NCBI GenBank assembly: GCA_022575985.1
Contig: JAKSXM010000263.1
Coordinates: 11,450,001 to 11,514,000 of the forward strand
Direction of reading: 5' to 3'
DNA length: 64,000 nt
Source: Anagrus nilaparvatae
Lineage: Eukaryota > Arthropoda > Insecta > Hymenoptera > Mymaridae
Shown piece by piece: positions 13,812 through 42,341 of the stretch. The stretch's first letter is position 1. Every line of letters begins with the position of its first letter. The translations under genes and the position numbers were made by a program. The notes beneath the pieces were generated by a model, which was not told the DNA's origin, did no database searches, and worked only from the letters and a program-made list of their open reading frames with translations.

Positions 13812-14447
13812 ATGAGCGCTTTAAATAGACTAGCCGAACTGTACGAATTTAAAGACGCTATGACAGAGAAAGCATACGACATATTAGTAGGTCATGCACC
13901 GGCCGATTTTGACGATATTAGCGAAATAGGGTTTAAAGAATTAATTAAGAAATACCAAAAATACTATAACGAACACACAAGCAAACTAGCTAACGTACCG
14001 GATCAATCCCTTATTGATACATTAAAAGGTTCTTCCTTCGTAGATAAAGTAGAAAAATTAGCTAAAGACACAACCTTTGTAAATATTTTAAAAGAGTTAA
14101 TTTCTAACGCCATTGACCAATCAGATATAATTAACATAATATTAGATTTAGAAAAAGGAGAAAATCCTTTAAACATTTACTTAGATTCACGTTTTAAAAA
14201 TATATTTAAAAAACATTGTAAATTATCAAAAGATAATATAGACCCAACCACTCACGACTACATTAAATACCTAGCAGTTAAAGTTATTGACGATTCAATT
14301 GAAGGAAAATTAACTATACCAGCAGAAGAACTTTTCAACGTATTAGAAGTAGGGGATGAAGATCAAGAATTATTAGAAAAAGCACTAAAAAACTATGAAG
14401 CATGTGCAATATTAATAGAGTTATACAATAACGACCTAAAACCATAA
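13812..14447 (+). CDS. ORF-A, unknown protein upstream of gag
   Basis: 211 residues, starting with ATG at the end of the structured leader. It is mainly helical in appearance, rich in Lys, Asp, Glu, Leu and Ile, with no signal peptide, membrane segment or zinc motif. I do not recognise it. It is in the same frame as gag and separated from it only by one TAA (14445-14447), followed by CTA and then 11 further open codons up to the gag ATG. It could therefore be an N-terminal matrix-like part of Gag cut off by a nonsense change, a separate leader protein, or a product with stop readthrough. The typical Gag of this group has no such extra ORF as far as I know. Its start MSAL resembles that of accessory ORF Z, which may be chance. 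Confidence 0.8.
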   Translation: MSALNRLAELYEFKDAMTEKAYDILVGHAPADFDDISEIGFKELIKKYQKYYNEHTSKLANVPDQSLIDTLKGSSFVDKVEKLAKDTTFVNILKELISNAIDQSDIINIILDLEKGENPLNIYLDSRFKNIFKKHCKLSKDNIDPTTHDYIKYLAVKVIDDSIEGKLTIPAEELFNVLEVGDEDQELLEKALKNYEACAILIELYNNDLKP

Positions 14448-14480
14448 CTACTAATCACAGAGCTATCGGTAGAGATCGAA

Positions 14481-15926
14481 ATGATAAGAATAGGAAATTC
14501 TCAATACATCGAGACCCCAGTTCTACCCCGAAAACCAAAGAAAATAGCTTTCAATTTAGATGCAACCGAATTCTATAATGAAAAATTTGGGGTAAGTCAA
14601 ACAAACGAAAGTCAGTATCAAACTTTTCAGGACACTGCTACTCAAAGAGGAAATTTAACACATCTGACACATCAGCAAAGTACAAACTTCGCTCACAGTA
14701 CAAATTACAGGCCAAATAGAAGCACCATGCAAGTAAGAACACCGTGCTCTACAATGTACTATACATCAGAAAATATAGAAGAATCATGCAGGTTTTGTAA
14801 CGTCGCTCATGGGCAAAATAATTGCCGATACTCGAGACCAACCATGGAAAACCATACTAATAACACAAGATTAATCTACGGCGAAAACTCAAGTTTAGCA
14901 AAAATTAGGCCATTTTCAATAAAAGACACATTAGAAATGATACCAAAATTCAGTGGAAAAGCGGAAGAACTAGAAGTTTTTGTCATAGGATGTGGCCGAG
15001 CCCGGAATATGATTCCACCGGAAAATGAATACGAACTTACCCAGTTAATACAAACTAGACTATTAGGCGAGGCAAGTAGGGCCACACTAGACCAAACTTT
15101 CAGTAATGTAAATAAACTAACGGAATTTATGGAATTTGCTTTTGGACATCCAAAAACGTCAAACGAGCTAAATGGCGAGTTATCACAGCTCAGGCAAAAG
15201 GAAAAGGAAACAATCATAATTTTTGCTAATAAAATCAAAGAAGTAGGCCGTAAGATCAAAAAAGCAAGGTTAATAGAAGGCAGACATACTGACGACGACG
15301 AAATAGAAAGAGACCTAACTAGATTCTTTCTTAAAGGCATGAGATTCGAGATACGTAATAGAATAATACCTTATGCTTCGCTCGAAGATAATATTAAGGA
15401 GGCTATACGAGTAGAAAGAGATACCTGTATATACGACGAAGTGAAAGTAGCTGACAAAGAAATAAAAATTGTTAACGCAGGAAACAAAGAAAAATGTCAA
15501 ATATGCAACTCCAGTCAACATCTTGCATCCGAGTGTGAAAACGTAACAGTAAAACAAAGCAGTGACAAGAATAAACCTATACAGTGTCAAATATGCAATA
15601 AACTTTATCATTCAGCCGCAGACTGTAGATCACGATTAAAGTGCAATCATTGCGGGAAAACAGGTCATGAAATCGACAAATGCTTTTCTAACCCGGCAAA
15701 TAAAAAACCGGCCGTTCAATCAAATAATAATACCAATCCAAAACCTGCCAGAACGAACACAGAAGCTGGTGTCGAGTGTTATTATTGCCATGCAAAAGGG
15801 CATAGGATTGCGGTCTGCAGGAAAAGAATAAGGTTTGAGAAAATGTCTCAAGAGAACCAGGGAAACTCCAACAGCCAACCGACAGCTGGCGCGAGTCGGG
15901 AGGCAGCAACTGCTCAGCAGAATTAA
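14481..15926 (+). CDS. Gag polyprotein with zinc knuckles
   Basis: 481 residues. The N-terminal third is Asn/Thr/Gln-rich and carries a C-X2-C-X3-H-X4-C motif at residues 103-115, a spacing more like that seen in BEL/Pao Gag. The middle (about 150-300) has the retrotransposon Gag fold pattern (KFSGKAEELEVFV, then RLLGEASR, then LSQLRQKEKETI). Four canonical CX2CX4HX4C knuckles begin at residues 339, 369, 388 and 433, giving a nucleocapsid region that should bind genomic RNA. Its 3' end overlaps the pol frame from 15839 and contains a GGGAAAC slippery site, so Gag-Pol would form by -1 frameshift. The tail is Gln/Ser/Ala-rich. Confidence 0.92.
   Translation: MIRIGNSQYIETPVLPRKPKKIAFNLDATEFYNEKFGVSQTNESQYQTFQDTATQRGNLTHLTHQQSTNFAHSTNYRPNRSTMQVRTPCSTMYYTSENIEESCRFCNVAHGQNNCRYSRPTMENHTNNTRLIYGENSSLAKIRPFSIKDTLEMIPKFSGKAEELEVFVIGCGRARNMIPPENEYELTQLIQTRLLGEASRATLDQTFSNVNKLTEFMEFAFGHPKTSNELNGELSQLRQKEKETIIIFANKIKEVGRKIKKARLIEGRHTDDDEIERDLTRFFLKGMRFEIRNRIIPYASLEDNIKEAIRVERDTCIYDEVKVADKEIKIVNAGNKEKCQICNSSQHLASECENVTVKQSSDKNKPIQCQICNKLYHSAADCRSRLKCNHCGKTGHEIDKCFSNPANKKPAVQSNNNTNPKPARTNTEAGVECYYCHAKGHRIAVCRKRIRFEKMSQENQGNSNSQPTAGASREAATAQQN
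15860..15866 (+). promoter_or_regulatory. GGGAAAC -1 ribosomal frameshift site
   Basis: The heptamer is in the correct phase of the gag frame (G GGA AAC), inside the 15839-15926 stretch where the pol frame is also open. Pol lies in the -1 frame relative to gag. Twelve bases downstream, CCGAC (15879-15883) can pair with GTCGG (15895-15899), and the loop GCTG can pair with CAGC at 15904-15907, giving a possible pseudoknot. GGGAAAC is a known retroviral slippery heptamer. Confidence 0.75.
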
Positions 15927-15964: not shown

Positions 15965-18592
15965 ATGTTGACCTCCAATACATTAATTAAGGATTGCGAA
16001 TTTCTCTTGGACACCGGTGCTAACACAAATCTACTAGTAAAAAGTGCCGTCCCTGAGAATGAGACAATCAATAAAAATGAAATAGTAAGATTACGTGGCA
16101 TTACCAACCAACCGGTATATTCTTTAGGTAGCATATCAACCAAAATTTATGGCCACGAAACGAAAATCCATCTTGTCGAGGACAACTTTCCAATAACAGA
16201 AGATGGCATTCTAGGGAACGGGTTTTTCAAGGAGAATAAAGCAAAACTATGCTTCGAAAAAAATGTATTCGAGGTTTCAGGACACAAAATACCGTTTCAT
16301 AGATACACGAAAGTTTACTCTATATCAGCACAGGATGACGAAAATCAGGATACGCACAATTCTCCTATAGAAACCGAGGTCAACAACCATCAAGGAGAAC
16401 AACCAGCTACCAATATAAAAAACATAAATCCGAAGAAAAAACATAAATCCGCTAATTTAAAAATCAAAAAAAATAAAGTCGTAAAATTAAAAATTCATAA
16501 ATCCGTGAAAGCAAAAAATAAAAAATCCGTCAAAACAAAAATTAAATATTCCATGGGAATCCGATATAGAGTCGTAAAATATTATAAAAATAAAAAAATA
16601 AATAAAATTCGCAGAAATAATAAAAATTATTTCCGCAGGGCAAGAAAGCCGCAAAATGAGCCAAGCGCTCCCGAAGACGAGGTCAAGCTAATAGATGAAC
16701 TTCTCAAAAAACATAAATCAGGACAAACGTTGCCAGATCAAAAAAAGCAACTAGAAGATTGTGAAACATTGAAAAATATATTAATAGAAAACCTAAATTC
16801 CGAAAAATTCGAAAATTTAGAAGACATACGAATTTTAACTTCAGAAATAATAAAATTCGTCAGCTGTCAAGGGCTTAAGGAATTAATCGAACCCTTGGAC
16901 AGATTATTAGCGGTACTACCGTTCCGAGAAAAGGTAAATACGACAGAGATATTTACTAAAGCCGTAACGACTCTATCAGATATTATAAACAAAAAGCCGA
17001 TCAATATTCTTGCCATGGAGATATCCGAGAGTGAAAGGATTAAAAAAATAAAAGACCTTTCAAATCTGGACCACTTAAAAGCCGAAGAAAGAAAAATAGT
17101 GGAAAAGATTCTCGAAGAAAATCACGAAAGATTTCAGTTACCAGATGAGCCATTGCCAAGCACTAACGTCTTTCAACATAGAATAATAACGACGAACACA
17201 GTGCCGCTCACCTCACGTATGTATAGAATATCGCCACTGCTTGCCGAAGAACTTAAGGAACAACTTGATAAGCTATTGGCCCAAGGGATCATAACACCAT
17301 CACATTCATCTTACAGTTCACCAGTGATCCTTGTACCCAAAAAACCCAACGCTAAAGGCGAAATAAAACATAGATTAGTTTTGGATTTGAGGAATTTAAA
17401 CAAACATACAATTCCTGACGCTTATCCCCTCCCTAATATTTTGGATTTACTGGACTCCATCAACGGATCTAAGTACTTCTGTACTTTGGACATGGCCCAA
17501 GGTTTCTTACAAATCGAATTGGACCCTAGGGATAGGCACAAAACCGCATTTGCAACTATGTATGGTTTATTTGAATATACTCGCCTAGTTTTTGGGTCTA
17601 GAAACGCTCCAGCCAGTTTCATGCGTCTCATTCAACGTCTTTTCGGAGACATGGCCAACGTTATAGCTTACATAGACGATTTCCTAATACACGCCAAGAC
17701 CCTAGAACATCTACTGGAATTAATTAAAGAAGTTATAAGAAGACTAAAAGAAGCAAATCTGAAACTTCAACCAGAAAAATGTGTATTTTTGAAATCAGAA
17801 GTCGAATATTTAGGGCATATCATAACTAAAGACGGAGTAAGGCCAAATCCCAGAAAATTAGAAGCAGTAAGAAATTTCCCTACTCCGAAAAACGAGAAAA
17901 ACATCAAGCAATGGCTAGGACTAACAGGGTATTATCGTAGACATATCCCGCAGTACGCAAAAATCGCAAAACCCCTCACGGCCTTGTTAAAAAAGGATAA
18001 AGAATTTGTGTGGGATGAAAAGGCACAAGAATCTTTTGAGGTCTTAAAAGATAAATTATGTGAAGCTCCAATTCTTCAATACCCCGATTTCTCCAGAGAT
18101 TTTATCTTAACAACAGACGCTAGTACAAAAAGTATCGGAGCAGTACTTTCACAAGGTGAAATTGGTAAAGATCTACCTATTGCATATGCAAGTCGTGTAC
18201 TAAACGATGCAGAACAAAGATATTCAGTCACTGATCAGGAAGCACTTGCGGTTGTTTGGGCAGTAGAGTATTTTCGCCCTTACTTATACGGCAGAAAATT
18301 TCTTTTAGTGACTGACCATAAAGCGCTAATATTCATGCAATCAAAAAAAGATCCTAATTCTAGGGTAGCTCGCTGGAGGTTGAAAATTGCCGACTACGAC
18401 TATGAGGTAATTTACAAACCAGGAGCGAGTAACGTTAATGCAGACGCTTTATCAAGAAACGTTTTGCACTTTGATATGATACCAATTTGTCCAATAAGAA
18501 ATTTAGAAAGCATCCCAGAAACACAAATAATAGAAGAAAATTCAGAAGAAATCGTCGCAGAATCTCAAGTACCGACGAGAATGCAAACATGA
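15965..18592 (+). CDS. pol: Pol part 1: protease, reverse transcriptase, RNase H
   Basis: 875 residues from the first ATG; the frame is open from 15839, so translation probably enters by frameshift rather than at this ATG. The aspartic protease has DTGA at residues 16-19. Residues about 140-225 form a very basic Lys/Arg linker not usual between PR and RT. RT follows, with LDMAQGF (first catalytic Asp 509) and YIDD at 569-572, then LGHII and the GYYRRHIP connection. RNase H starts near TTDAST (Asp 718), with DQEALAVVW and VTDHKAL. The order PR-RT-RH and motif details are those of Ty3/gypsy. The ORF ends at a TGA (18590-18592), after which the same frame stays open into integrase. Confidence 0.95.
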   Translation: MLTSNTLIKDCEFLLDTGANTNLLVKSAVPENETINKNEIVRLRGITNQPVYSLGSISTKIYGHETKIHLVEDNFPITEDGILGNGFFKENKAKLCFEKNVFEVSGHKIPFHRYTKVYSISAQDDENQDTHNSPIETEVNNHQGEQPATNIKNINPKKKHKSANLKIKKNKVVKLKIHKSVKAKNKKSVKTKIKYSMGIRYRVVKYYKNKKINKIRRNNKNYFRRARKPQNEPSAPEDEVKLIDELLKKHKSGQTLPDQKKQLEDCETLKNILIENLNSEKFENLEDIRILTSEIIKFVSCQGLKELIEPLDRLLAVLPFREKVNTTEIFTKAVTTLSDIINKKPINILAMEISESERIKKIKDLSNLDHLKAEERKIVEKILEENHERFQLPDEPLPSTNVFQHRIITTNTVPLTSRMYRISPLLAEELKEQLDKLLAQGIITPSHSSYSSPVILVPKKPNAKGEIKHRLVLDLRNLNKHTIPDAYPLPNILDLLDSINGSKYFCTLDMAQGFLQIELDPRDRHKTAFATMYGLFEYTRLVFGSRNAPASFMRLIQRLFGDMANVIAYIDDFLIHAKTLEHLLELIKEVIRRLKEANLKLQPEKCVFLKSEVEYLGHIITKDGVRPNPRKLEAVRNFPTPKNEKNIKQWLGLTGYYRRHIPQYAKIAKPLTALLKKDKEFVWDEKAQESFEVLKDKLCEAPILQYPDFSRDFILTTDASTKSIGAVLSQGEIGKDLPIAYASRVLNDAEQRYSVTDQEALAVVWAVEYFRPYLYGRKFLLVTDHKALIFMQSKKDPNSRVARWRLKIADYDYEVIYKPGASNVNADALSRNVLHFDMIPICPIRNLESIPETQIIEENSEEIVAESQVPTRMQT

Positions 18593-18841
18593 AACAGAGG
18601 CAAAAGCCAAAAATACCAAGAGGCCATTGACGCCTTAAAACCGAGGAAAAAGCAAAAAGTAAAAATAAATACACAAGACGTAACTCCTGAAAGCGAAAGT
18701 CCCGTTACTCTTCATGACGTTCCCAGCACATCGACCTCAAACATTCATGACGTCCCAAACATATCAACCGCTGATTACCAAGAAGAGCAGGGTCCGTCCA
18801 GAGAGGTAGAAGGGGAAGAAGAGCTTGTATATTTCAAAAAC
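18593..18841 (+). other. In-frame linker between Pol stop and integrase ORF
   Basis: No stop occurs in the pol frame between TGA 18590-18592 and the integrase ORF, so a single codon separates the two. The stretch would encode a hydrophilic Ser/Thr/Glu-rich linker. The TGA is either a disabling change or a readthrough point; its context ACA TGA AAC is not a recognised readthrough signal. Confidence 0.7.
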
Positions 18842-20269
18842 TTGCCTTTCGCCAACGCAAAATTAAATACGTCAGAGATAAATGCTTACAGAAATATGTT
18901 GAAATCCGACAACCTTGTGTCGTCAAGAGAAAAGATGTACATGAGAAAAGACTACTGGGTATATTTTACGTCAACAAAAGGAGAACCATGTGATATCGGC
19001 TCAACAGAATTACAAGTCACTGGTTATCTCCCTAAAAATATAAAATTAGAACTCTGCATACCAAAATACATGAAAATTGGTTCGAAATCACACATTATAC
19101 TTCCCATACGGGGTGATACGACCATAAGCATGTCCCAAGCAACTGAAAATTTAAAAACATTATTCGAAAAATTATGTAAACTTACAATAGATAAAAACAT
19201 AAAATCGTTTAGCATGGCCAAATCAAAGGTCATATGTAATATAGATTGGATAGATGTCTTAAGGCTATTGAAAAATAGTTTTAAAGACAATAATGAATCA
19301 AAGATAATAATATGCTTAGGCGAAATCACGATACCCAAAGAAAGTGAAAGGGAAAGTATATTAAGATACTACCACGAGTCACTTATAGGAGGTCACAAGG
19401 GACGCACCAAAGTATTACGCAGAATCAAAACGAAATATTTTTGGGAAGGAATGCAGGAGCAAATCCAAGATTTCATAAACCAATGTTTGGATTGTCAACT
19501 AAAAAATTTGGTCAGAGTAAAAACAAAACAGCCAATGATTTTAACGGATACTCCTAAGCAGGCAGGTTACAAAATTTGCCTGGACATTGTAGGTCCATTA
19601 AAAGAGACTAAAAACGGCAACACCTGCATCCTAACAATAATGGACAACTTGACCAAGTTTAGCGTCGCAGTACCCTTACCAAATTCAACGGCTAGCACCG
19701 TCGCTGACGCTCTAATTAAGAGATACATCTGTTATTTTGGATCACCAGCCGTGGTTTTGAGTGACAAGGGGAGTAACTTTATGTCTAAGTTGTTTGCACA
19801 GGTAGCAAAAGTGTTTAAAATAAAGCAAGTAAAAACGTGTAGCTACCACCACCAGAGCTGCACGGTGGAACGATTTCATCATACCTTGACTGAACACCTT
19901 AAATTGTTCATCAATAAACAGAGAGATAATTGGGACGAGTTCATTGATCTCGCAACATTCTCTTACAACACCCAATATCACGAGGCAACTAAAGCAACTC
20001 CGTTCGAGCTGACTTTCGCTAGGGTTGCCAGAATTCCATCAAATGTCGATGACCCTGAGCCAGAATTAACCATCGACGATTACTTGAAAGATCTCCTTCT
20101 TAAACTACATGAAATTCAAAGAATAGCAAGAGAAAACATCATAAAAGCAAAGGAAAGAAACAAACAAAATTACGACCAAAGACTGGTTTGCGTTGATTTT
20201 AAATTTGAATATAAATTAATTTTAAATTTAAATTTAATTTTAAATTTAAACGTTAATTTTAAATTTTAA
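18842..20269 (+). pseudogene. pol: Pol part 2: integrase, C-terminus interrupted
   Basis: 475 residues listed from a TTG; there is no good ATG and the frame continues upstream to the pol TGA, so this is probably the C-terminal part of Pol. The N-terminal zinc site shows HESLIGGH and CLDC. The catalytic core has D248 (CLDIVGPL), D308 (LSDKGSNF) and E343 (TVERFHH), with YHHQSC before the Glu. Only 34 residues separate the last two acids, one fewer than the usual D,D(35)E, and the usual P and N-G of that loop are changed. After about residue 450 the protein runs into an AT-rich inserted stretch and ends at TAA. The proper GPF-containing tail resumes in the same frame at 20312. Integration activity is doubtful. 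Confidence 0.9.
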
Positions 20270-20815: not shown

Positions 20816-20824
20816 CCTATAATA

Positions 20825-21994
20825 ATGCAGACAAAATATATCGCAATTCTATGCCTGGTGTCGTGTTTAAAAATAATAACTGCACAATCTATTATAGCAT
20901 ACGACTGCGGTCAACAATATACCAATATAACCACATTTTCTCTTATCGACGTGGGAGAATGTCGCGTACCAGATAAACCTAATGTAAAAATAGAAAAAAC
21001 AAAAATTGCATTGTTACAATTAAACGATTACACAAAAGTAAAGGCATATTTATGCAAAATCGAAGTTACTCGACAAATATCGTATTGCGATGAGGCTTGG
21101 TATCGATCAGGCATCCCTAAAGACATTGAAATGGGAAAAGTGTCTTACATTGAACCCACGACAAGAATGCTATGCAACCAAATGCATCGCACCAGGACAC
21201 TAGCTTTCAGAAACACCATAAATATTCCAGGGCTAAGATCTAACGGAACCATCACTTCACCTGTTCAATTAGCAGGGCATAAAGGCGAAAAAGGTTCAAA
21301 ATGCACAAACGCTCCTTACATAGATCCGTATGGAGCTTGGACGGAAGTAATTGTAGACGGGTACATAAAAGTAACACTGGAAGATTATTACGCCACAGTA
21401 GACCTTAACAACGATCAGGTGATTTTGAACACAGGAACACGTTGTAGATTATCAGATGAATCATGCACAGACCTTTATGGGGGCGAAGTGTACTGGGACG
21501 CCACACCAAGAGATAATTGCAGAGAAAAATATACAAAATTATATACTGGCATAGTTGATAAAATAACAGATTTTGAAAGACCAAACAGCCCCGTATTCGC
21601 TTTGGAAACATCAATTGTTTTCGCATTTACGGTACAAGGCACCACCAACATCGGTTCTAACCAGGTATATCGAACGGAACATCCGAAAATTTCGATTTTT
21701 GAAGGAGACAGACCAGAATTACTTAAAATACCGGAAGACACCTCTCCAGAAAATTTAGATCTGTTGACATACATGAACTCTAAGTTCATTTATGTAGAAA
21801 AGCATCTTAAGGTTCAGATGCAAAATTTATATCATGACCTACTTTTACAGAAATGTAACTTAGAGAAAAAAGTCATCAGGAATGCGCTAAATATAGCGCA
21901 ATTACAGCCTGATTTGTTTAGTATGCAGATTTTAAATCGTGCAGGTCACATGGGTAAAACTCCCGTCTTCTTGCGAAATATTAATACGGGATGA
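20825..21994 (+). pseudogene. env: Envelope glycoprotein, ectodomain part
   Basis: 389 residues. A hydrophobic signal peptide (about 1-20, ending IITA) is followed by a Cys-rich ectodomain with N-glycosylation sites such as NIT at 34 and NGT further on. It does not read like the F-type Env of gypsy. The YDCG start, the GAWTEV...G.IKVTLEDY block, GTRCRLSDESC and YGGEVYW recall glycoproteins of arthropod mononegaviruses of the chuvirus group, which are known as captured env genes in some BEL/Pao elements; this is pattern memory. The ORF ends at TGA 21992-21994 because the frame is lost near 21940-21990. The membrane anchor continues in another frame. Confidence 0.85.
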
Positions 21995-22289
21995 AATCTA
22001 CAAAGGAACAGTCAACTCTATGCCCCGATTTATCACGCCCCAGGGCAATCTCAAGTTTGGGGATATAAGCAAGTTCTTGACGACTCCTGAACCCATTACA
22101 GAGTCAGTCGTTACAGAAGACGAATCAAGTGATATAGAACCTGAAAATAACAAAATCTTGGCCGGATTGGCGCTAGTCGTGTTATCATTAATCATATTAG
22201 TTGTACTATCACATTATCTCATTAAGAAAAAAAGTTATAAGAGAATAAACGACCAAAATCTAATTAACGAAAGCTACATATACAACTAG
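21939..22289 (+). pseudogene. env: Envelope membrane-anchor part, frameshifted
   Basis: 116 residues in a different frame from the ectodomain, overlapping it by 56 bp. The real Env portion begins around CEILIRDEIYKG. It has an acidic stalk, a single hydrophobic span ILAGLALVVLSLIILVV, then a Lys-rich cytoplasmic tail ending ESYIYN. This is the expected C-terminal anchor, detached by a small indel. From 22003 on it lies in the segment that is tandemly duplicated (second copy at 24745). Confidence 0.85.
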
Positions 22290-22314
22290 ACTCAAATATA
22301 AAAATAATTTTTTA

Positions 22315-23034
22315 ATGGAAAGTTCTATACTCAACACCGACTTGGTTAAGGAAGCAATTCCTTCACTCATCAAGGCCGCAGCAAAACCAGAGGGTCAATG
22401 CCCATTTAAAACGGCAAAATTAGTCAAAATAATAGCCAATAGAATAACAAAAAAAAACCTGTTACAAGGAATTTGTGATATTCTCGAAACCCAAGAAGCA
22501 AGAACACTCACAAATCCCACTATAATTTTCACATACATACTAGCACAAAGTAAACATAAGCACGAAATTATCAAGGCTATTACGGAAGCCATAGAAGAAA
22601 TCGACGATCGATTAACCAAAAACAGGCCACCCAGATGGGTATATAACATCAATTTTGACGCTTTGGAACTTCTAGACCGATACGCGGAAAATATAACCAA
22701 GTCTATGGTCAAAATAAACACTCACTACTACTGTATGAAGGCAACTCTAGATCCAATATACATAGGAAAAGTAAAAATTTCACAAAATCCAAAGTTAGAA
22801 AGACTAAAACTTCTATGTAATACCTGCTGCCTACTATTAAACTGGAAGATCATCGATTGGAAATTAGTGGAAAGTTCTCTTGCATTAGTATTCAGGAAAA
22901 GGTACAACAAGTGCCTAAATTGTAAAAAAACAATAGTTAAATTTTGTGAAATAAACAATTGTATTAAGTGTGTCGAATCATTTAAAAGAAACAAAAGGGA
23001 AGTTTTCAGGAGAGGATACATAAACTTACAATAA
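22315..23034 (+). CDS. Accessory ORF X, unknown, zinc-ribbon-like end
   Basis: 239 residues starting 25 bp after the env stop. Predominantly helical and basic. The C-terminus has cysteines at 200, 203, 211, 216 and 219, forming CLNC and CIKC pairs that could bind a metal ion as a zinc ribbon, followed by a basic tail KRNKREVFRRG. No signal peptide or membrane span. I do not recognise a family. It is inside an LTR element downstream of env, where simple errantiviruses have no gene, so an accessory or regulatory role is suggested by position only. A second identical copy is at 25057. Confidence 0.8.
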   Translation: MESSILNTDLVKEAIPSLIKAAAKPEGQCPFKTAKLVKIIANRITKKNLLQGICDILETQEARTLTNPTIIFTYILAQSKHKHEIIKAITEAIEEIDDRLTKNRPPRWVYNINFDALELLDRYAENITKSMVKINTHYYCMKATLDPIYIGKVKISQNPKLERLKLLCNTCCLLLNWKIIDWKLVESSLALVFRKRYNKCLNCKKTIVKFCEINNCIKCVESFKRNKREVFRRGYINLQ

Positions 23035-23909
23035 GTAAAATTTAAGGAAATTAAGACAAGTTAATCTCGGTATAAGGGTAATAAATAAGTAAAATCAATC
23101 AAGTTTAGATTAATAAAATATATATTAAAACAACCGTACAAAATTTTGTATAAGTATAGCTCAATCAAAAAAAAAGGTCAAAGACATCCTCCGACTGACC
23201 TTCCTCATGTAGCCAAATCCGGTTATATGTGTCAAACTAAACAAAATTTTTTTTTAATTATTATTTTTTTTAACAACACAAAAAAAACTCCTACAAAAGT
23301 AACAACTCACCAAGCTATACCACCATTCATCTTGATTACCTCGGTAAGGAATCCGTTGCAGCACATGCCCTAAAGGAGTCTTTTTGGAATAATGAGATAG
23401 AATGCAACAATAATTCCACTACAAAAACAAAAGAGAAAGATAGATTAGCAAAAAAAACAACTATTTGGACACAAAATTTTGAATCACACCAAATATTCGG
23501 CTTCAAGGGCATCTCCATCGTTCAACACGGCCACATAACGACCTTTGTGATTACAGAGATCCGTAACTCTCATTTTATTTAAAATAATTGACTATTATTC
23601 GAAGCTACTCACTCAGGGCGTAAATTAGTACTCAAGAAATCAATCAGAAAAGACTAATATTCAAATTCCAAGTTCAGGCCAACAAACTCATAAAATTAAA
23701 AAAATTTTTATTCAATTTCAAAAAATTCCAAGAAGAATAAAAAAAAAAAAAAAAAAAAATAATATATCTATAAAATCATAAAAACTTTCAAATAAAAAAA
23801 AAAAAAAATAATAAAACATTTTTTTTTTTGAAGAGTAAAACGAAATACTCTTCCAAAAAGAAAAAAGGAGAAGGGAAGCCACTTATAATATAAAATTTTT
23901 TTTTCTATC
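23035..23909 (+). other. Spacer between X and Y with a possible exon
   Basis: Mostly AT-rich. A frame without ATG is open from about 23262 to TAA 23580-23582 and reads as a normal-looking protein segment (HLDYLGKESVAAHALKESFW, ending RNSHFI), so it may be an exon of a spliced product; a donor-like CGGTAAGG lies at 23339-23346. A small hairpin AAGGTCA...TGACCTT is at about 23173-23203. A 21-base A run lies at 23739-23759. Confidence 0.35.
23830..23854. promoter_or_regulatory. Hairpin with AAACGAAA loop before Y
   Basis: GAAGAGTA and TACTCTTC form the stem around loop AAACGAAA. The same hairpin is arrayed at 29048-29327 and 36009-36132. Here it stands 55 bp upstream of ORF Y. Duplicate at 26572-26596. 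Confidence 0.7.
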
Positions 23910-24242
23910 ATGAATGTGTTAAGACAATTAAGAATTTACCAAGTTACATTACGAAAAAATATATACAACAATTTCAGAATTCTCTTAACTTTAAAAAAAA
24001 TTGAGAAATTAAAATTATCAACTCATGACCTAAGAAAAACTGATATAAGAGATGAACTCAAAATAATAAGGACACTAAACAGGCAAGTGAGCGAAGGAAT
24101 AACCAGACTCCTTAGGAAATGGGCCTGGGAAGCCATCCACGTATATGGGGTTCACATACCTGACGATGGATATTCATCAGGAGACTCACTTGGGGGCGAC
24201 AGTGACAGCGAAGTCTCTACAGAAGACGAAGCCAATCAATAA
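23910..24242 (+). CDS. Accessory ORF Y, acidic-tail paralogue
   Basis: 110 residues. The N-terminal 80 are basic and helical (MNVLRQLRIYQ ... LLRKWAWE). The C-terminal 30 are acidic and Ser-rich, with HIPDDGYSSGDS at 83-93 and SDSEVSTE at 98-105. It aligns without gaps to ORF Z, so the two arose by duplication. DDGYSS resembles the DDG-type beta-TrCP/Slimb degron and the acidic serines fit casein kinase 2 sites; both are inference. No known family. Start context is ATCATGAATG after a t-rich tract. Confidence 0.8.
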   Translation: MNVLRQLRIYQVTLRKNIYNNFRILLTLKKIEKLKLSTHDLRKTDIRDELKIIRTLNRQVSEGITRLLRKWAWEAIHVYGVHIPDDGYSSGDSLGGDSDSEVSTEDEANQ

Positions 24243-24362
24243 AGAAATATTTAACTAAATTCAAAAAAATCAGGTCAACAAAACCTGGCAAAATTTTATA
24301 TATATACGCCTTCAAAATTTTTTTTTAGTATAAGTAAAGACAGTGGCCAATAAACTACGACA
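24243..24362 (+). promoter_or_regulatory. Y-Z spacer with putative splice acceptor
   Basis: AATTTTTTTTTAG at 24316-24328 is a good acceptor 34 bp before the Z start. A small inverted repeat CAGGT...ACCTG is at about 24271-24289. Confidence 0.45.
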
Positions 24363-24686
24363 ATGAGCGCATTAAAAAAACTATATAAATATCAAAGGGT
24401 ACTAAGAGAAAACATAGATGATACTTACAGACTAAAAATAACTATCAGGAAAATTCACAACTTAAACCTATCATCATATGATTTAAGAAGATCTAGTATC
24501 AAAATTGAATTAATCTTATTAAAAAAGTTTAACACACAAGTAATCGACGATATCAATGAACTCCTCAGGAGATGGACTTGGGAAACAACTAATGTATATG
24601 ACCTACATATACCAGACGACGGATATTCAAGCGGAGACTCAGAAGGATTTTATAGTGATAGTGAAGTTTCAACAGAAGAGGAATAA
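24363..24686 (+). CDS. Accessory ORF Z, paralogue of Y
   Basis: 107 residues, ATG in GACAATGAGC context. Basic helical N-terminal part (MSALKKLYKYQ ... LLRRWTWE) and an acidic serine-rich tail with HIPDDGYSSGDS at the same residue numbers as in Y, then SDSEVSTEEE. The two proteins match best in the W-x-W-E region and the tail. Function unknown. The second copy is at 27105. Confidence 0.8.
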   Translation: MSALKKLYKYQRVLRENIDDTYRLKITIRKIHNLNLSSYDLRRSSIKIELILLKKFNTQVIDDINELLRRWTWETTNVYDLHIPDDGYSSGDSEGFYSDSEVSTEEE

Positions 24687-24761
24687 TCATAGTAAAACAA
24701 ATTTTTTTTTAACAAACTTTATTCATACAATTATTGGAACAGTCAAGGAACAGTCAACTCT

Positions 24762-25031
24762 ATGCCCCGATTTATCACGCCCCAGGGCAATCTCAAGTTT
24801 GGGGATATAAGCAAGTTCTTGACGACTCCTGAACCCATTACAGAGTCAGTCGTTACAGAAGACGAATCAAGTGATATAGAACCTGAAAATAACAAAATCT
24901 TGGCCGGATTGGCGCTAGTCGTGTTATCATTAATCATATTAGTTGTACTATCACATTATCTCATTAAGAAAAAAAGTTATAAGAGAATAAACGACCAAAA
25001 TCTAATTAACGAAAGCTACATATACAACTAG
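24762..25031 (+). pseudogene. Second copy of env membrane-anchor end
   Basis: 89 codons from an internal ATG (MPRFITPQGN), identical to the end of the first env anchor, with the hydrophobic span and basic tail but no ectodomain. It is a by-product of the cassette duplication. Confidence 0.85.
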
Positions 25032-25056
25032 ACTCAAATATAAAAATAATTTTTTA

Positions 25057-25776
25057 ATGGAAAGTTCTATACTCAACACCGACTTGGTTAAGGAAGCAAT
25101 TCCTTCACTCATCAAGGCCGCAGCAAAACCAGAGGGTCAATGCCCATTTAAAACGGCAAAATTAGTCAAAATAATAGCCAATAGAATAACAAAAAAAAAC
25201 CTGTTACAAGGAATTTGTGATATTCTCGAAACCCAAGAAGCAAGAACACTCACAAATCCCACTATAATTTTCACATACATACTAGCACAAAGTAAACATA
25301 AGCACGAAATTATCAAGGCTATTACGGAAGCCATAGAAGAAATCGACGATCGATTAACCAAAAACAGGCCACCCAGATGGGTATATAACATCAATTTTGA
25401 CGCTTTGGAACTTCTAGACCGATACGCGGAAAATATAACCAAGTCTATGGTCAAAATAAACACTCACTACTACTGTATGAAGGCAACTCTAGATCCAATA
25501 TACATAGGAAAAGTAAAAATTTCACAAAATCCAAAGTTAGAAAGACTAAAACTTCTATGTAATACCTGCTGCCTACTATTAAACTGGAAGATCATCGATT
25601 GGAAATTAGTGGAAAGTTCTCTTGCATTAGTATTCAGGAAAAGGTACAACAAGTGCCTAAATTGTAAAAAAACAATAGTTAAATTTTGTGAAATAAACAA
25701 TTGTATTAAGTGTGTCGAATCATTTAAAAGAAACAAAAGGGAAGTTTTCAGGAGAGGATACATAAACTTACAATAA
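25057..25776 (+). CDS. Accessory ORF X, second copy
   Basis: Identical in translation to the ORF at 22315-23034, with the same CLNC/CIKC end. It keeps the same upstream and downstream spacers, so any regulatory sites were copied with it. Confidence 0.8.
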   Translation: MESSILNTDLVKEAIPSLIKAAAKPEGQCPFKTAKLVKIIANRITKKNLLQGICDILETQEARTLTNPTIIFTYILAQSKHKHEIIKAITEAIEEIDDRLTKNRPPRWVYNINFDALELLDRYAENITKSMVKINTHYYCMKATLDPIYIGKVKISQNPKLERLKLLCNTCCLLLNWKIIDWKLVESSLALVFRKRYNKCLNCKKTIVKFCEINNCIKCVESFKRNKREVFRRGYINLQ

Positions 25777-26651
25777 GTAAAATTTAAGGAAATTAAGACA
25801 AGTTAATCTCGGTATAAGGGTAATAAATAAGTAAAATCAATCAAGTTTAGATTAATAAAATATATATTAAAACAACCGTACAAAATTTTGTATAAGTATA
25901 GCTCAATCAAAAAAAAAGGTCAAAGACATCCTCCGACTGACCTTCCTCATGTAGCCAAATCCGGTTATATGTGTCAAACTAAACAAAATTTTTTTTTAAT
26001 TATTATTTTTTTTAACAACACAAAAAAAACTCCTACAAAAGTAACAACTCACCAAGCTATACCACCATTCATCTTGATTACCTCGGTAAGGAATCCGTTG
26101 CAGCACATGCCCTAAAGGAGTCTTTTTGGAATAATGAGATAGAATGCAACAATAATTCCACTACAAAAACAAAAGAGAAAGATAGATTAGCAAAAAAAAC
26201 AACTATTTGGACACAAAATTTTGAATCACACCAAATATTCGGCTTCAAGGGCATCTCCATCGTTCAACACGGCCACATAACGACCTTTGTGATTACAGAG
26301 ATCCGTAACTCTCATTTTATTTAAAATAATTGACTATTATTCGAAGCTACTCACTCAGGGCGTAAATTAGTACTCAAGAAATCAATCAGAAAAGACTAAT
26401 ATTCAAATTCCAAGTTCAGGCCAACAAACTCATAAAATTAAAAAAATTTTTATTCAATTTCAAAAAATTCCAAGAAGAATAAAAAAAAAAAAAAAAAAAA
26501 ATAATATATCTATAAAATCATAAAAACTTTCAAATAAAAAAAAAAAAAAATAATAAAACATTTTTTTTTTTGAAGAGTAAAACGAAATACTCTTCCAAAA
26601 AGAAAAAAGGAGAAGGGAAGCCACTTATAATATAAAATTTTTTTTTCTATC

Positions 26652-26984
26652 ATGAATGTGTTAAGACAATTAAGAATTTACCAAGTTACATTACGAAAAA
26701 ATATATACAACAATTTCAGAATTCTCTTAACTTTAAAAAAAATTGAGAAATTAAAATTATCAACTCATGACCTAAGAAAAACTGATATAAGAGATGAACT
26801 CAAAATAATAAGGACACTAAACAGGCAAGTGAGCGAAGGAATAACCAGACTCCTTAGGAAATGGGCCTGGGAAGCCATCCACGTATATGGGGTTCACATA
26901 CCTGACGATGGATATTCATCAGGAGACTCACTTGGGGGCGACAGTGACAGCGAAGTCTCTACAGAAGACGAAGCCAATCAATAA
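26652..26984 (+). CDS. Accessory ORF Y, second copy
   Basis: Identical in translation to 23910-24242, with the AAACGAAA-loop hairpin kept upstream at 26572-26596. Confidence 0.8.
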   Translation: MNVLRQLRIYQVTLRKNIYNNFRILLTLKKIEKLKLSTHDLRKTDIRDELKIIRTLNRQVSEGITRLLRKWAWEAIHVYGVHIPDDGYSSGDSLGGDSDSEVSTEDEANQ

Positions 26985-27104
26985 AGAAATATTTAACTAA
27001 ATTCAAAAAAATCAGGTCAACAAAACCTGGCAAAATTTTATATATATACGCCTTCAAAATTTTTTTTTAGTATAAGTAAAGACAGTGGCCAATAAACTAC
27101 GACA

Positions 27105-27428
27105 ATGAGCGCATTAAAAAAACTATATAAATATCAAAGGGTACTAAGAGAAAACATAGATGATACTTACAGACTAAAAATAACTATCAGGAAAATTCAC
27201 AACTTAAACCTATCATCATATGATTTAAGAAGATCTAGTATCAAAATTGAATTAATCTTATTAAAAAAGTTTAACACACAAGTAATCGACGATATCAATG
27301 AACTCCTCAGGAGATGGACTTGGGAAACAACTAATGTATATGACCTACATATACCAGACGACGGATATTCAAGCGGAGACTCAGAAGGATTTTATAGTGA
27401 TAGTGAAGTTTCAACAGAAGAGGAATAA
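27105..27428 (+). CDS. Accessory ORF Z, second copy
   Basis: Identical in translation to 24363-24686. Sequence downstream of 27472 differs from the first copy and leads into the antisense zinc-finger/JmjC fragment. Confidence 0.8.
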   Translation: MSALKKLYKYQRVLRENIDDTYRLKITIRKIHNLNLSSYDLRRSSIKIELILLKKFNTQVIDDINELLRRWTWETTNVYDLHIPDDGYSSGDSEGFYSDSEVSTEEE

Positions 27429-27512
27429 TCATAGTAAAACAAATTTTTTTTTAACAAACTTTATTCATACAAATATATACACATCTACACAAAAAAAAAA
27501 AAAACAAAATAA

Positions 27513-27878
27513 CTAAGTTAAACGCATCTTTTTTCTATGCTTCTGAGTTAACCGATGTTTAGGTAAATTTCCAGCACGTACGAGTGCCCCACACTCACAC
27601 ACGCGTTGATCTAGTGGTCTAACTCCATGAGTATTCTGGTGTCGCTCAGCATTAAACTTCAAATCAGTTTCGTAATCACAAAGATCACAACGAAAAACAT
27701 GATTATTCTTCACGTGAGCTTCAAGTTCAGCTTCATTCAAAAATTGCTTACCACACCCACGCCTACGACAGGTTAAACGACGATTCTCCTCAAGAATTAT
27801 TAATGGCTGATCGGTCTCCAACTCTCCTATACCACCGATATCTGTATCACAAAAACACAAAGTCGGTGGAAGCCTCAC
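27513..27878 (-). pseudogene. C2H2 zinc-finger part of the antisense JmjC gene
   Basis: 121 codons. C2H2-type fingers are visible: CRRRGCGKQF...H...H, FRCDLCDYET...H..TH and a third CECGALV...H...H, then a basic end KHRKKMRLT and TAA. It is in the same frame as the JmjC exon just upstream and separated from it by one TAG (27888-27890). An AATAAA on this strand (plus 27460-27465) lies 48 bp beyond the stop and may be the poly(A) signal. The fingers suggest DNA or RNA binding. Confidence 0.7.
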
Positions 27879-27887
27879 TGCAGTCAG

Positions 27888-28966
27888 CTATCGTGGCATA
27901 ATATTAGTAGACTCACTAATATTAGCTGCTATACTAACTGTAAAATGTGGCATGTGTGGACTTACATACACCAAATCCGATGGCTGCTGGATAAAGTCGT
28001 AGTATAGTATGTGGTTATCTTCCAAGAACTTAGATGAAGGAAAGAAGCCTGGGCTGTGTAATGTCGCACGCGGACAGGAACAATTCAAGCATAGATATCC
28101 ATCACTACAAAATTCATTTGTGCACTGGTTGGCTTGTAATAACAATGATCCAACCGCCTTACAATAATCAGGCACAATTGGACTAAGAATAATCCGCCAA
28201 GCGTTGGCTCCACCAGATCTGAGCAAATGAGCAGCACCAACGGCTCCTCGCTCTAGACACATGGCCGAACCAGCCCCTTTTTCACCAACATACCACATTG
28301 AAGTATTTATGCCTAGAAACAAAAATTTTTCTTTTATTAGTAATATTCAATAAGCAACAAATTTCTTTTCAAAAAAAAAAAAGAGAACAACTCACCAGGA
28401 GTACAGGATAAGCCTCCAACCAAGACATCACTAGCATAGTGGTCAGATCGGATATCCAAATAACTTTTTCCATAACAAAGCTCCAAATCCCGAGCAATCA
28501 TCCACGGAACGCAACTATTCGCCCGTTTATCCAGAGCTGTTTTAGCCAACCTGGCCAAATCTTCGAGGTTCTCACACTCAGGTATTGGAACAAAGGTATC
28601 CCCCAACATCATAGAAGTCCTAAAATCAACCGCAGAGATAGCAGGAGACTCTAGTTTCGCGTATCGACCAAGGACACCAGTAATCACCATCTCACGAGTT
28701 TTAAACGCAGTTATTTTTTCAAGATACGGTCCATCATCAAAAGACTCATCAACAGCCACAAAATCTGGAAACTATAAAAACAAAAAAAAAAAACTAACTA
28801 AACATATAGATACATCCAAAAACAAGAGGACATTAAACCCACTTACCAACATACAAGAAGCCCACTGTAGAAGAGCCGATTTTCGATCAAGAAAATCACC
28901 AAATTCACCCAAAGGTACCTTCCCAGGAACTATAGTCAAGGAAGGACATCCAAAAAGTTTTCCAGC
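27888..28966 (-). pseudogene. JmjC-domain gene fragment, three exons
   Basis: Three minus-strand exons can be placed by GT-AG sites that keep the frame: 28966-28847, 28771-28396 and 28312-27888, with introns of 75 and 83 bp. The last exon reads like the JmjC fold (INTSMWYVGEKGAGSAM ... YDFIQQPSDLVYVSPHMPHF). JmjC proteins are Fe(II)/2-oxoglutarate oxygenases, many of them histone demethylases. Here the position where the first iron-binding His is expected reads AMCLER, so a Cys may replace it and activity is doubtful. The 5' end is lost at the hairpin repeats near 29040, and an in-frame TAG separates the zinc fingers. It lies inside the LTR element in antisense, with introns, so it was not captured as spliced RNA of its own strand. 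Host or transposon origin is open. Confidence 0.65.
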
Positions 28967-29990: not shown

Positions 29991-32378
29991 GGCATTCTAG
30001 GGAACGGGTTTTTCAAGGAGAATAAAGCAAAACTATGCTTCGAAAAAAATGTATTCGAGGTTTCAGGACACAAAATACCGTTTCATAGATACACGAAAGT
30101 TTACTCTATATCAGCACAGGATGACGAAAATCAGGATACGCACAATTCTCCTATAGAAACCGAGGTCAACAACCATCAAGGAGAACAACCAGCTACCAAT
30201 ATAAAAAACATAAATCCGAAGAAAAAACATAAATCCGCTAATTTAAAAATCAAAAAAAATAAAGTCGTAAAATTAAAAATTCATAAATCCGTGAAAGCAA
30301 AAAATAAAAAATCCGTCAAAACAAAAATTAAATATTCCATGGGAATCCGATATAGAGTCGTAAAATATTATAAAAATAAAAAAATAAATAAAATTCGCAG
30401 AAATAATAAAAATTATTTCCGCAGGGCAAGAAAGCCGCAAAATGAGCCAAGCGCTCCCGAAGACGAGGTCAAGCTAATAGATGAACTTCTCAAAAAACAT
30501 AAATCAGGACAAACGTTGCCAGATCAAAAAAAGCAACTAGAAGATTGTGAAACATTGAAAAATATATTAATAGAAAACCTAAATTCCGAAAAATTCGAAA
30601 ATTTAGAAGACATACGAATTTTAACTTCAGAAATAATAAAATTCGTCAGCTGTCAAGGGCTTAAGGAATTAATCGAACCCTTGGACAGATTATTAGCGGT
30701 ACTACCGTTCCGAGAAAAGGTAAATACGACAGAGATATTTACTAAAGCCGTAACGACTCTATCAGATATTATAAACAAAAAGCCGATCAATATTCTTGCC
30801 ATGGAGATATCCGAGAGTGAAAGGATTAAAAAAATAAAAGACCTTTCAAATCTGGACCACTTAAAAGCCGAAGAAAGAAAAATAGTGGAAAAGATTCTCG
30901 AAGAAAATCACGAAAGATTTCAGTTACCAGATGAGCCATTGCCAAGCACTAACGTCTTTCAACATAGAATAATAACGACGAACACAGTGCCGCTCACCTC
31001 ACGTATGTATAGAATATCGCCACTGCTTGCCGAAGAACTTAAGGAACAACTTGATAAGCTATTGGCCCAAGGGATCATAACACCATCACATTCATCTTAC
31101 AGTTCACCAGTGATCCTTGTACCCAAAAAACCCAACGCTAAAGGCGAAATAAAACATAGATTAGTTTTGGATTTGAGGAATTTAAACAAACATACAATTC
31201 CTGACGCTTATCCCCTCCCTAATATTTTGGATTTACTGGACTCCATCAACGGATCTAAGTACTTCTGTACTTTGGACATGGCCCAAGGTTTCTTACAAAT
31301 CGAATTGGACCCTAGGGATAGGCACAAAACCGCATTTGCAACTATGTATGGTTTATTTGAATATACTCGCCTAGTTTTTGGGTCTAGAAACGCTCCAGCC
31401 AGTTTCATGCGTCTCATTCAACGTCTTTTCGGAGACATGGCCAACGTTATAGCTTACATAGACGATTTCCTAATACACGCCAAGACCCTAGAACATCTAC
31501 TGGAATTAATTAAAGAAGTTATAAGAAGACTAAAAGAAGCAAATCTGAAACTTCAACCAGAAAAATGTGTATTTTTGAAATCAGAAGTCGAATATTTAGG
31601 GCATATCATAACTAAAGACGGAGTAAGGCCAAATCCCAGAAAATTAGAAGCAGTAAGAAATTTCCCTACTCCGAAAAACGAGAAAAACATCAAGCAATGG
31701 CTAGGACTAACAGGGTATTATCGTAGACATATCCCGCAGTACGCAAAAATCGCAAAACCCCTCACGGCCTTGTTAAAAAAGGATAAAGAATTTGTGTGGG
31801 ATGAAAAGGCACAAGAATCTTTTGAGGTCTTAAAAGATAAATTATGTGAAGCTCCAATTCTTCAATACCCCGATTTCTCCAGAGATTTTATCTTAACAAC
31901 AGACGCTAGTACAAAAAGTATCGGAGCAGTACTTTCACAAGGTGAAATTGGTAAAGATCTACCTATTGCATATGCAAGTCGTGTACTAAACGATGCAGAA
32001 CAAAGATATTCAGTCACTGATCAGGAAGCACTTGCGGTTGTTTGGGCAGTAGAGTATTTTCGCCCTTACTTATACGGCAGAAAATTTCTTTTAGTGACTG
32101 ACCATAAAGCGCTAATATTCATGCAATCAAAAAAAGATCCTAATTCTAGGGTAGCTCGCTGGAGGTTGAAAATTGCCGACTACGACTATGAGGTAATTTA
32201 CAAACCAGGAGCGAGTAACGTTAATGCAGACGCTTTATCAAGAAACGTTTTGCACTTTGATATGATACCAATTTGTCCAATAAGAAATTTAGAAAGCATC
32301 CCAGAAACACAAATAATAGAAGAAAATTCAGAAGAAATCGTCGCAGAATCTCAAGTACCGACGAGAATGCAAACATGA
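29991..32378 (+). pseudogene. pol: Pol part 1, second copy, 5'-truncated
   Basis: It starts inside protease (after the DTG active site), so protease is not functional. RT (YIDD) and RNase H are complete and identical to the first copy, with the same basic linker and the same TGA end. The first in-frame ATG is at 30291. It has no gag, leader or LTR in front. Confidence 0.92.
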
Positions 32379-32627
32379 AACAGAGGCAAAAGCCAAAAAT
32401 ACCAAGAGGCCATTGACGCCTTAAAACCGAGGAAAAAGCAAAAAGTAAAAATAAATACACAAGACGTAACTCCTGAAAGCGAAAGTCCCGTTACTCTTCA
32501 TGACGTTCCCAGCACATCGACCTCAAACATTCATGACGTCCCAAACATATCAACCGCTGATTACCAAGAAGAGCAGGGTCCGTCCAGAGAGGTAGAAGGG
32601 GAAGAAGAGCTTGTATATTTCAAAAAC

Positions 32628-34055
32628 TTGCCTTTCGCCAACGCAAAATTAAATACGTCAGAGATAAATGCTTACAGAAATATGTTGAAATCCGACAACC
32701 TTGTGTCGTCAAGAGAAAAGATGTACATGAGAAAAGACTACTGGGTATATTTTACGTCAACAAAAGGAGAACCATGTGATATCGGCTCAACAGAATTACA
32801 AGTCACTGGTTATCTCCCTAAAAATATAAAATTAGAACTCTGCATACCAAAATACATGAAAATTGGTTCGAAATCACACATTATACTTCCCATACGGGGT
32901 GATACGACCATAAGCATGTCCCAAGCAACTGAAAATTTAAAAACATTATTCGAAAAATTATGTAAACTTACAATAGATAAAAACATAAAATCGTTTAGCA
33001 TGGCCAAATCAAAGGTCATATGTAATATAGATTGGATAGATGTCTTAAGGCTATTGAAAAATAGTTTTAAAGACAATAATGAATCAAAGATAATAATATG
33101 CTTAGGCGAAATCACGATACCCAAAGAAAGTGAAAGGGAAAGTATATTAAGATACTACCACGAGTCACTTATAGGAGGTCACAAGGGACGCACCAAAGTA
33201 TTACGCAGAATCAAAACGAAATATTTTTGGGAAGGAATGCAGGAGCAAATCCAAGATTTCATAAACCAATGTTTGGATTGTCAACTAAAAAATTTGGTCA
33301 GAGTAAAAACAAAACAGCCAATGATTTTAACGGATACTCCTAAGCAGGCAGGTTACAAAATTTGCCTGGACATTGTAGGTCCATTAAAAGAGACTAAAAA
33401 CGGCAACACCTGCATCCTAACAATAATGGACAACTTGACCAAGTTTAGCGTCGCAGTACCCTTACCAAATTCAACGGCTAGCACCGTCGCTGACGCTCTA
33501 ATTAAGAGATACATCTGTTATTTTGGATCACCAGCCGTGGTTTTGAGTGACAAGGGGAGTAACTTTATGTCTAAGTTGTTTGCACAGGTAGCAAAAGTGT
33601 TTAAAATAAAGCAAGTAAAAACGTGTAGCTACCACCACCAGAGCTGCACGGTGGAACGATTTCATCATACCTTGACTGAACACCTTAAATTGTTCATCAA
33701 TAAACAGAGAGATAATTGGGACGAGTTCATTGATCTCGCAACATTCTCTTACAACACCCAATATCACGAGGCAACTAAAGCAACTCCGTTCGAGCTGACT
33801 TTCGCTAGGGTTGCCAGAATTCCATCAAATGTCGATGACCCTGAGCCAGAATTAACCATCGACGATTACTTGAAAGATCTCCTTCTTAAACTACATGAAA
33901 TTCAAAGAATAGCAAGAGAAAACATCATAAAAGCAAAGGAAAGAAACAAACAAAATTACGACCAAAGACTGGTTTGCGTTGATTTTAAATTTGAATATAA
34001 ATTAATTTTAAATTTAAATTTAATTTTAAATTTAAACGTTAATTTTAAATTTTAA
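32628..34055 (+). pseudogene. pol: Integrase, second copy
   Basis: Identical to 18842-20269, including the TTG-labelled start, the shortened catalytic spacing and the AT-rich insertion with its palindrome (34060-34094). The GPF remnant follows at 34098-34277. Confidence 0.9.
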
Positions 34056-34610
34056 ATTTAATATTGTCTCCTACTTTAAGTAGGAGACAATATTTATTTG
34101 ACGGAGGGAGGTAAAATACATAAGTTCAGCGATCAAAGCAGAGGACCTTTCGCCGTAGCGGAAACTTACCCAGATGGGAATCTAAAAATCAAGACAGGGC
34201 CAGATCATTACGATATAATCCATTCCAATAGAGCTCGAAAATCAAACATATTGGCCAAATTTCCTATAGATGCTTAAATAATCAAATAAAACACATCATT
34301 TTTACCATAACAAATCAATAATTTTATTAACAGATACATTTTTACGATTATGATTATTAAGAGGAAACTCTCGGTTCATTAAAAAAAATTTTTTTTTCTC
34401 CAATAAGCTTAATAAGATAAATGAAAACAAACGACAAATTTTTTTTTTTCCGGACAGACTTCTTTTTGGTTACTTTCACCGCAAAATTTTTTTTTGAGGA
34501 AGGGGAAATAGCCAAAATTTAGTTAAAACATTCCTTTACAAAACTATGCTCTTTTTATACATTTATACAAATTCCTAATAAAATTCAATTTTCTTTTTTA
34601 GCCTATAATA

Positions 34611-35978: not shown

Positions 35979-36008
35979 ACTCTTCCAAAAATATATTTTT
36001 GTTGTTTT

Positions 36009-41717: not shown

Positions 41718-42341
41718 TGTAACGGCTGGCAAAGCAAAAGGCCAGCTTTACCAAAAGTCATCGACCAAGAGATATCTTGCGTCGATTAAACAGAAATTCG
41801 CAGATATAAATTCGCTAATATAATGTGTAAAAATGAAAGTAAGCTGGGACTTATGTAAGGCATCGAGCCACGTAATAACGAGGTCAACCACAAAAAAGAG
41901 AAACTGGGTCCTGTTTGGAGATCCATGATGCCCCACTAAACCAGCTCAACAACAAATCATATAAATACTGCCGAATTTGTCAGAACAGCATTCGATCTCC
42001 GGTCGAGCTTCCGAACAGTCGCAAAATTATCTATCTTAAATCTCTATTTTCGCCACTACTCTAATTATCTGTTTGACTTATAATTATTTATTGTACTTTA
42101 ACTTGTAAACCATTTAAACATTTATTTTATAATAAACTATAAGTTTTAATCAAAGGTATTAAGATTTATTCAGTAAATATAGTCCTAAACATTTGTCCTC
42201 TTACTACAGTTTTGCCTTATTCCTTACGGGAATTTGTCGCTAGTAGTTGAATCCAACATAAAAAATATTAAAGTATTAAAATCCAGTATATAACATAGTA
42301 AAATCAGTTTATAATCGGTACCAAAATATTTAACCGTTACA
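41718..42341 (+). repeat. 3' LTR
   Basis: 624 bp, matching the 5' LTR except for an 8-bp shortening near 41912 and two substitutions seen by eye. AATAAA at 42131-42136. Followed by ctat and resumed satellite B. Confidence 0.95.

Follow-up and report, generated by a model that had tools for sequence, protein, structure and literature searches.

Errantiviruses (Metaviridae), such as gypsy and ZAM of Drosophila, are among the closest described systems to a retrovirus-like element found in a 64,000-nucleotide stretch of the Anagrus nilaparvatae genome (contig JAKSXM010000263.1, positions 11,450,001 to 11,514,000), called here the window. According to the profile of the International Committee on Taxonomy of Viruses, errantiviruses carry one to three genes (PMC7879559). 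The lineage of the window element shares with them the long terminal repeats (LTRs), gag, the Ty3/gypsy order of pol domains, an F-type envelope (Env2, Baculo_F) and, in two siblings of the window copy, 4-bp target duplications. Unlike them, it adds a chuvirus-type envelope (Env1), three genes named X, Y and Z, and an intron-bearing antisense gene J, and it spans 14-18.6 kb between LTR ends.

Other insect elements share single traits with this lineage. Anakin (PMC7642597) is a retroelement using a Chuviridae-type glycoprotein as envelope; it belongs to BEL-Pao and not to gypsy, its main text does not use the word 'accessory', and no second envelope is named in the passages that describe it. 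Gypsy elements with type III glycoproteins (PMC13172572) likewise have an envelope type in common with RNA viruses, and again 'accessory' does not occur in the main text. Constrained small accessory open reading frames (ORFs), sORF1 and sORF2, are described for the MDG1 group of insect gypsy-type elements (PMC11952523), but in the pages concerned these lie upstream of gag in elements with no envelope, and sORF2 is a transmembrane, fusogen-like protein, which X, Y and Z are not. Among the papers listed by subject, no title or opening of an abstract described the present gene set; the survey eLife 108449 may mention dual envelopes or extra ORFs.

In the lineage described here, the layout is LTR-gag-pol-Env1-Env2-X-Y-Z-(antisense J)-LTR, with a length of about 18 kb in three of the four LTR-paired siblings. 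What the sequences show is the gene order, its recurrence, the enclosure by LTRs, the signature of purifying selection in each of X, Y, Z, Env2 and J, and a single position for the GT...AG intron of J. Between the LTRs, gag is followed by protease, reverse transcriptase, RNase H and integrase in the order of Metaviridae (Ty3/gypsy). The gag call itself is based on zinc-knuckle and weak Retrotrans_gag matches under the cut-off, and many siblings have an uninterrupted gag of approximately 680-720 amino acids. In the two siblings compared, the target duplications were TTAC/TTAC and TGAC/TGAC, and duplications of 4 bp are typical of errantiviruses. We place the window copy in a complex-type Ty3/gypsy endogenous retrovirus lineage, an explanation that we hold to be moderately probable when the proposed gene roles are included.

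Complex retroviruses carry several accessory genes after env, and HBZ of human T-cell leukaemia virus type 1 (HTLV-1) is a spliced antisense gene close to the 3' LTR. The lineage resembles these viruses in having several conserved, non-structural genes under selection after env and in its antisense, intron-bearing J near the 3' LTR. By this analogy, the family resembles complex retroviruses such as HTLV more closely than it does the simple retroviruses of insects. The two differ in family (Retroviridae vs Metaviridae) and in the antisense protein (bZIP vs the JmjC domain and C2H2 zinc fingers of J), and no sequence homology is claimed.

Two envelope genes

The initial annotation had compared the element with simple errantiviruses, which carry gag, pol and env only. 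Judged by its profile match, Env1 is a fusion glycoprotein of Monjiviricetes (Jingchuvirales/chuvirus) type and not the F-type env of simple errantiviruses: in a sibling the protein of 663 amino acids is full-length, covering positions 8-648 of 653 of the PF24664 profile (expectation value, E, 1.9e-193). The siblings hold an F-type envelope as well, namely a second ORF of about 470 amino acids between Env1 and X, with a C-terminal transmembrane-like stretch. Out of 45 Env2 matches of at least 900 bp, 33 lay downstream of a same-strand Env1 match, 31 of these at 2.08-2.53 kb from the Env1 start. The ratio of nonsynonymous to synonymous substitution rates (dN/dS) indicated purifying selection on Env2.

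The F-type assignment comes from the Env2 proteins of two siblings (L034 and L040), which matched Baculo_F (PF12259) with E values of 4.5e-10 and 4e-6. It is weakened by the other two of the four Env2 tested, from group 1, the sublineage of the window, which had no Baculo_F match; these are 34-37% identical to the two matching proteins. A furin-type site (RX[KR]R) in the ectodomain, the feature looked for in a working F-type fusogen, was absent in all nine Env2 scanned, three of which have such a site solely after the transmembrane-like segment.

From these sequences it may be proposed that entry passed to Env1, a class III fusion protein of chuvirus type, and that the older Env2, with no ectodomain furin-type site, would have been retained as an auxiliary glycoprotein. 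Some baculoviruses having GP64 retain their F protein. The group I alphabaculoviruses, with GP64 and a remnant F, thus also combine a class III fusion protein with a kept F-type protein, although they are DNA viruses and the parallel is in arrangement alone.

In the passage cited here, Dezordi et al. (2023) found Jingchuvirales glycoproteins close to gypsy fragments, yet 'no clear evidence' that Gypsy captured them (PMC10084718). On this point, left unsettled in that passage, LTR-bounded gypsy elements in the present genome do hold a Jingchuvirales-type glycoprotein, beside an older F-type envelope. The type of Env1 within gypsy is not new in itself, because Chary et al. (2026) speak of gypsy elements bearing type III fusion glycoproteins (PMC13172572).

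X, Y and Z

Three sense-strand ORFs after env, of 239, 110 and 107 codons, with Y and Z paralogous and the whole enclosed by near-identical LTRs, had been pointed out in the initial annotation and were confirmed. The same genes are present after env in further LTR copies. They are conserved and, according to dN/dS among copies, under purifying selection; the description 'complex-retrovirus-style accessory genes' is for this reason a fair one, as far as sequences can tell. None of the outcomes named in advance as fatal to that description (occurrence at a single locus, a match to ordinary host or transposon genes, neutral decay) occurred. The antisense J had been overlooked.

Purifying selection and codon periodicity were detected for each of X, Y, Z and J. 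Searches found no homologue of known function for X, and neither Pfam nor protein search found one for Y/Z; no Pfam match of the three proteins exceeded the cut-off. Likewise, a scan of 14 X, 8 Y and 5 Z sequences revealed no transmembrane-like stretch.

X holds its fixed place after Env1 even in copies whose protein identity is as low as about 27%. The ligand pattern consists of C140, C168, C171, H189, C200, C203, C216 and C219, and in the window X the otherwise conserved H189 is replaced by L. A probable deeper relative, X', was identified as a 278-amino-acid ORF after Env1 at another locus (L051); it has 27 genome matches, of which 17 follow an Env1 match downstream. Eleven of the 17 begin 2.06-2.17 kb past the Env1 start, and therefore have no room for Env2, and three begin at about 3.8 kb. 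X' retains all eight ligands in order, a profile comparison of X and X' gave a probability of 76.5% (E 2.2e-5, 100 columns), and three X' copies (L056, L057, L058) showed pairwise dN/dS of 0.14-0.20. Because of this spacing, the shared ligands, the profile match and the X' dN/dS, X probably predates its pairing with Env2. The earlier suggestion that X is the lineage's own invention does not agree with the X' match, which points to a deeper history. X would most likely either regulate viral expression or counteract silencing by the host, and may be made from a spliced subgenomic mRNA.

For Y, an AlphaFold model (mean predicted local distance difference test, pLDDT, 67) showed a helical hairpin and a disordered acidic tail. 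The motif DDGYSS was present in each of the 13 copies of Y and Z that were scanned and agrees with the ligand motif of beta-TrCP/Slimb (DSGxxS or an acidic variant). HIV-1 Vpu docks on beta-TrCP. By analogy to Vpu, Y and Z are predicted to be adaptors that dock on beta-TrCP/Slimb via this degron-like motif. As excerpted from PMC9606124, beta-TrCP ligands comprise DpSGxxpS and acidic variants, e.g. DDGFVD of CDC25B, and the Emi1 degron is DSGYSS, of which the acidic variant DEGYSE acts as a constitutive degron. It is the resemblance of DDGYSS to beta-TrCP degrons, including those of Emi1 and CDC25B, that makes Y and Z candidates for docking on Slimb.

Several observations weigh against so uniform a picture. 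No X or X' was detected for 48 of the 88 Env1 matches of at least 900 bp, so X is not universal. The value of 76.5% came from shallow alignments, a single sequence giving just 16%, and the structure model of X was unusable (pLDDT 39.7). Y occurs without Z in three siblings (L030, L031, L032), which have an 88-amino-acid ORF at the place of Z. As to selection, dN/dS rises to as much as 0.69 in close pairs, which differ by few changes, and is 0.2-0.8 in comparisons between sublineages, where dS is near-saturated.

The antisense gene J

To describe the linkage of J, matches of its JmjC piece within 9 kb of an Env1 start were counted, with strand taken relative to Env1. Of 145 genome matches, 38 fell inside the 9 kb that follow an Env1 start. 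Of these, 37 were antisense and one was sense, and 32 of the 37 were at 5.0-7.1 kb. The equivalent count upstream of Env1 was one antisense and three sense. J lies inside the LTR pair in four siblings and in the window. A short GT...AG stretch splits the upstream and JmjC exons at one position in all 13 copies inspected, from four sublineages, the position being read by eye and three of the 13 copies being near-identical. In comparable pairs, dN/dS of J was 0.15-0.28.

Pfam JmjC passed its cut-off in five of six J last exons (E 2e-14 in L043, 2.7e-14 in L050), the sixth being below, and no Pfam match was obtained for the upstream exon of L029. Against PDB, the top JmjC chain among the matches listed (60 of 189) was KDM4A (E 6.4e-7); the zinc-finger part of J outscored the JmjC part, matching many C2H2 proteins among these.

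The reading of J as an element gene with a JmjC function also meets counter-evidence. As many as 107 of the 145 matches fall outside the 9 kb downstream of any Env1 match, and J-like genes therefore exist elsewhere too. Two close pairs had higher dN/dS (L041-L042, 0.61; L025-L027, 0.30), and values between sublineages were 0.37-0.83, near saturation. The HxE...H pattern, which we take to be the JmjC iron-binding site, could be recognized by eye in two of the seven aligned sequences, L043 and L050; the other five, the window's sublineage included, lack it. Judging from these sequences, J may be a chromatin protein; in some sublineages it is possibly catalytic, in others perhaps a decoy or DNA-binding protein. 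Its minus-strand transcript would begin at the 3' end and be spliced, and the protein would act on provirus chromatin. The intron could survive retrotransposition, by the argument that the packaged RNA is sense and cannot splice an antisense intron.

Two further observations concern J. L043 combines an X of the 27% class with a J having iron-binding residues as in L050, and is a possible recombinant. At C62:66759929-66765385, remote from any Env1 match, JmjC-like open frames are arrayed in tandem, each about 120-130 amino acids long.

The window copy and alternative explanations

Table 1. Features of the element in the window (window coordinates).
Feature	Position	Strand	Description
5' LTR	12709..13340	+	TGTAACGG...CCGTTACA; primer-binding-site-like TGGGGGCCC directly 3'
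gag	13812..15926	+	split by single in-frame stop, 14445-14447
pol, protease-reverse transcriptase-RNase H	15965..18592	+	Pfam RVP, RVT_1, RT_RNaseH
pol, integrase	18593..20269	+	Pfam Integrase_H2C2, rve; stop codon parts integrase from RNase H segment
Env1, N-terminal part	20825..21952	+	389-codon ORF; PF24664, E 2e-101, profile 8-372 of 653
Env2, C-terminal remnant	21953..22289 (ORF 21939-22289, 116 codons)	+	transmembrane-like segment and tail; matches sibling Env2 ends
X	22315..23034	+	239 amino acids; C-terminal zinc-ligand pattern
Y	23910..24242	+	110 amino acids; predicted helical hairpin, acidic tail with DDGYSS
Z	24363..24686	+	107 amino acids; Y paralogue, also with DDGYSS
Tandem copy of 22003-24734	24745..27476	+	99.96%; second Env2 tail, X, Y, Z
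J, last exon	27513..28316	-	JmjC-like domain and C2H2 zinc fingers; in-frame stop 27888-27890
J, upstream exon and start of following short intron	28337..28771	-	
Repeat of 16205-21952 (from pol into Env1)	29991..35738	+	exact, zero mismatches, 5748 bp
3' LTR	41718..42341	+	purine-rich AAGGAGAGGAG just upstream

The element in the window is a rearranged, broken copy (Table 1). Its LTRs (632 vs 624 bp) differ by five substitutions and one gap, their outer flanks, TTAT and CTAT, differ in one base, and the LTR family has 42 genome matches. A deletion at about 21952 joined the front of Env1 to the end of Env2. Both pol-Env1 copies stop at this identical base, and the exact copy is bracketed by 97% repeats (29157-29993 and 35979-36798); this duplication is either a recent rearrangement or an assembly error. 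The tandem duplication of 2742 bp, taken in the initial annotation as amplification of the accessory genes, was found in this broken copy alone: there was no other same-strand pair 2.7 kb apart among the X matches and no second X in 20 sibling loci. It is consequently no evidence that the lineage has amplified its genes.

The bracketing repeats bear a minisatellite of GGAAGAGTAAAACGAAATACTCTTCCA-like units, with related arrays in siblings L025 and L027. The 3' region of the element (36658-40626) holds 176-bp repeats and large inverted arms (36658-37527 vs 39757-40626, 870 nt at 98.7%). Just upstream of the element, 1-10906 and 10927-12341 consist of long higher-order tandem repeats, with units of roughly 80-97% identity, some inverted; relatives of the second block reappear, inverted, past the 3' LTR at 42343-43222. 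Elsewhere in the window, a near-perfect palindrome (58026-60575; 94.9% to its own reverse complement over 2564 aligned positions) and a tRNA-Ser (AGA) gene (49690-49764, minus strand) were found.

Such rearrangements raise the question of whether the gene set is a product of assembly error or of one composite locus, since the window has the exact and the 99.96% copies and a deletion ending at the same base. Siblings on many contigs carry the same genes in order, however, so that this explanation may apply just to the window's own rearrangements and is highly improbable for the gene set. It is also unlikely that the element acquired X, Y, Z and J from a host or another foreign source and carries them as passive cargo that has no function for it. 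This would agree with the lack of known-function homologues for X and Y/Z in our searches, the likeness of J to JmjC domains of the cellular KDM4 type and to C2H2 zinc fingers, and the stop codon in the window J, but every gene shows purifying selection and codon periodicity, and X keeps its place even at about 27% identity.

For J, repeated nesting of another transposon or of a host gene family could explain the matches far from Env1, the JmjC matches lying in open frames of 450-650 amino acids and the tandem array near C62:66.76 Mb. The orientation and spacing of the linked matches, the enclosure of J by five LTR pairs (four siblings and the window) and its single intron position speak against nesting, which we regard as improbable. 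Finally, the position of X, Y and Z after two envelope genes, and the predicted hairpin of Y, might suggest diverged structural pieces, i.e. further envelope or gag-like parts, and not accessory regulators; given the absence of transmembrane-like stretches in the sequences scanned and of Pfam matches above the cut-off, and the zinc-ligand pattern of X, we see little likelihood in this.

The reading as a complex-type lineage can be extended. A lineage outside Retroviridae may have independently reached the full complex plan, with two envelopes that differ in origin, a zinc-binding X, degron-mimic Y/Z and an HBZ-placed, spliced, KDM4-like J that would counter the methylation of histone H3 lysine 9 directed to the provirus by Piwi-interacting RNAs (piRNAs); in this full form we consider the proposal doubtful. 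Complex retroviral genomes, with many accessory genes and an antisense gene, are known from vertebrate Retroviridae. If true, a Ty3/gypsy lineage of complex plan, including a constrained, intron-bearing antisense gene, would represent an independent origin, and would allow one to ask which pressures yield accessory genes in a host with piRNA silencing.
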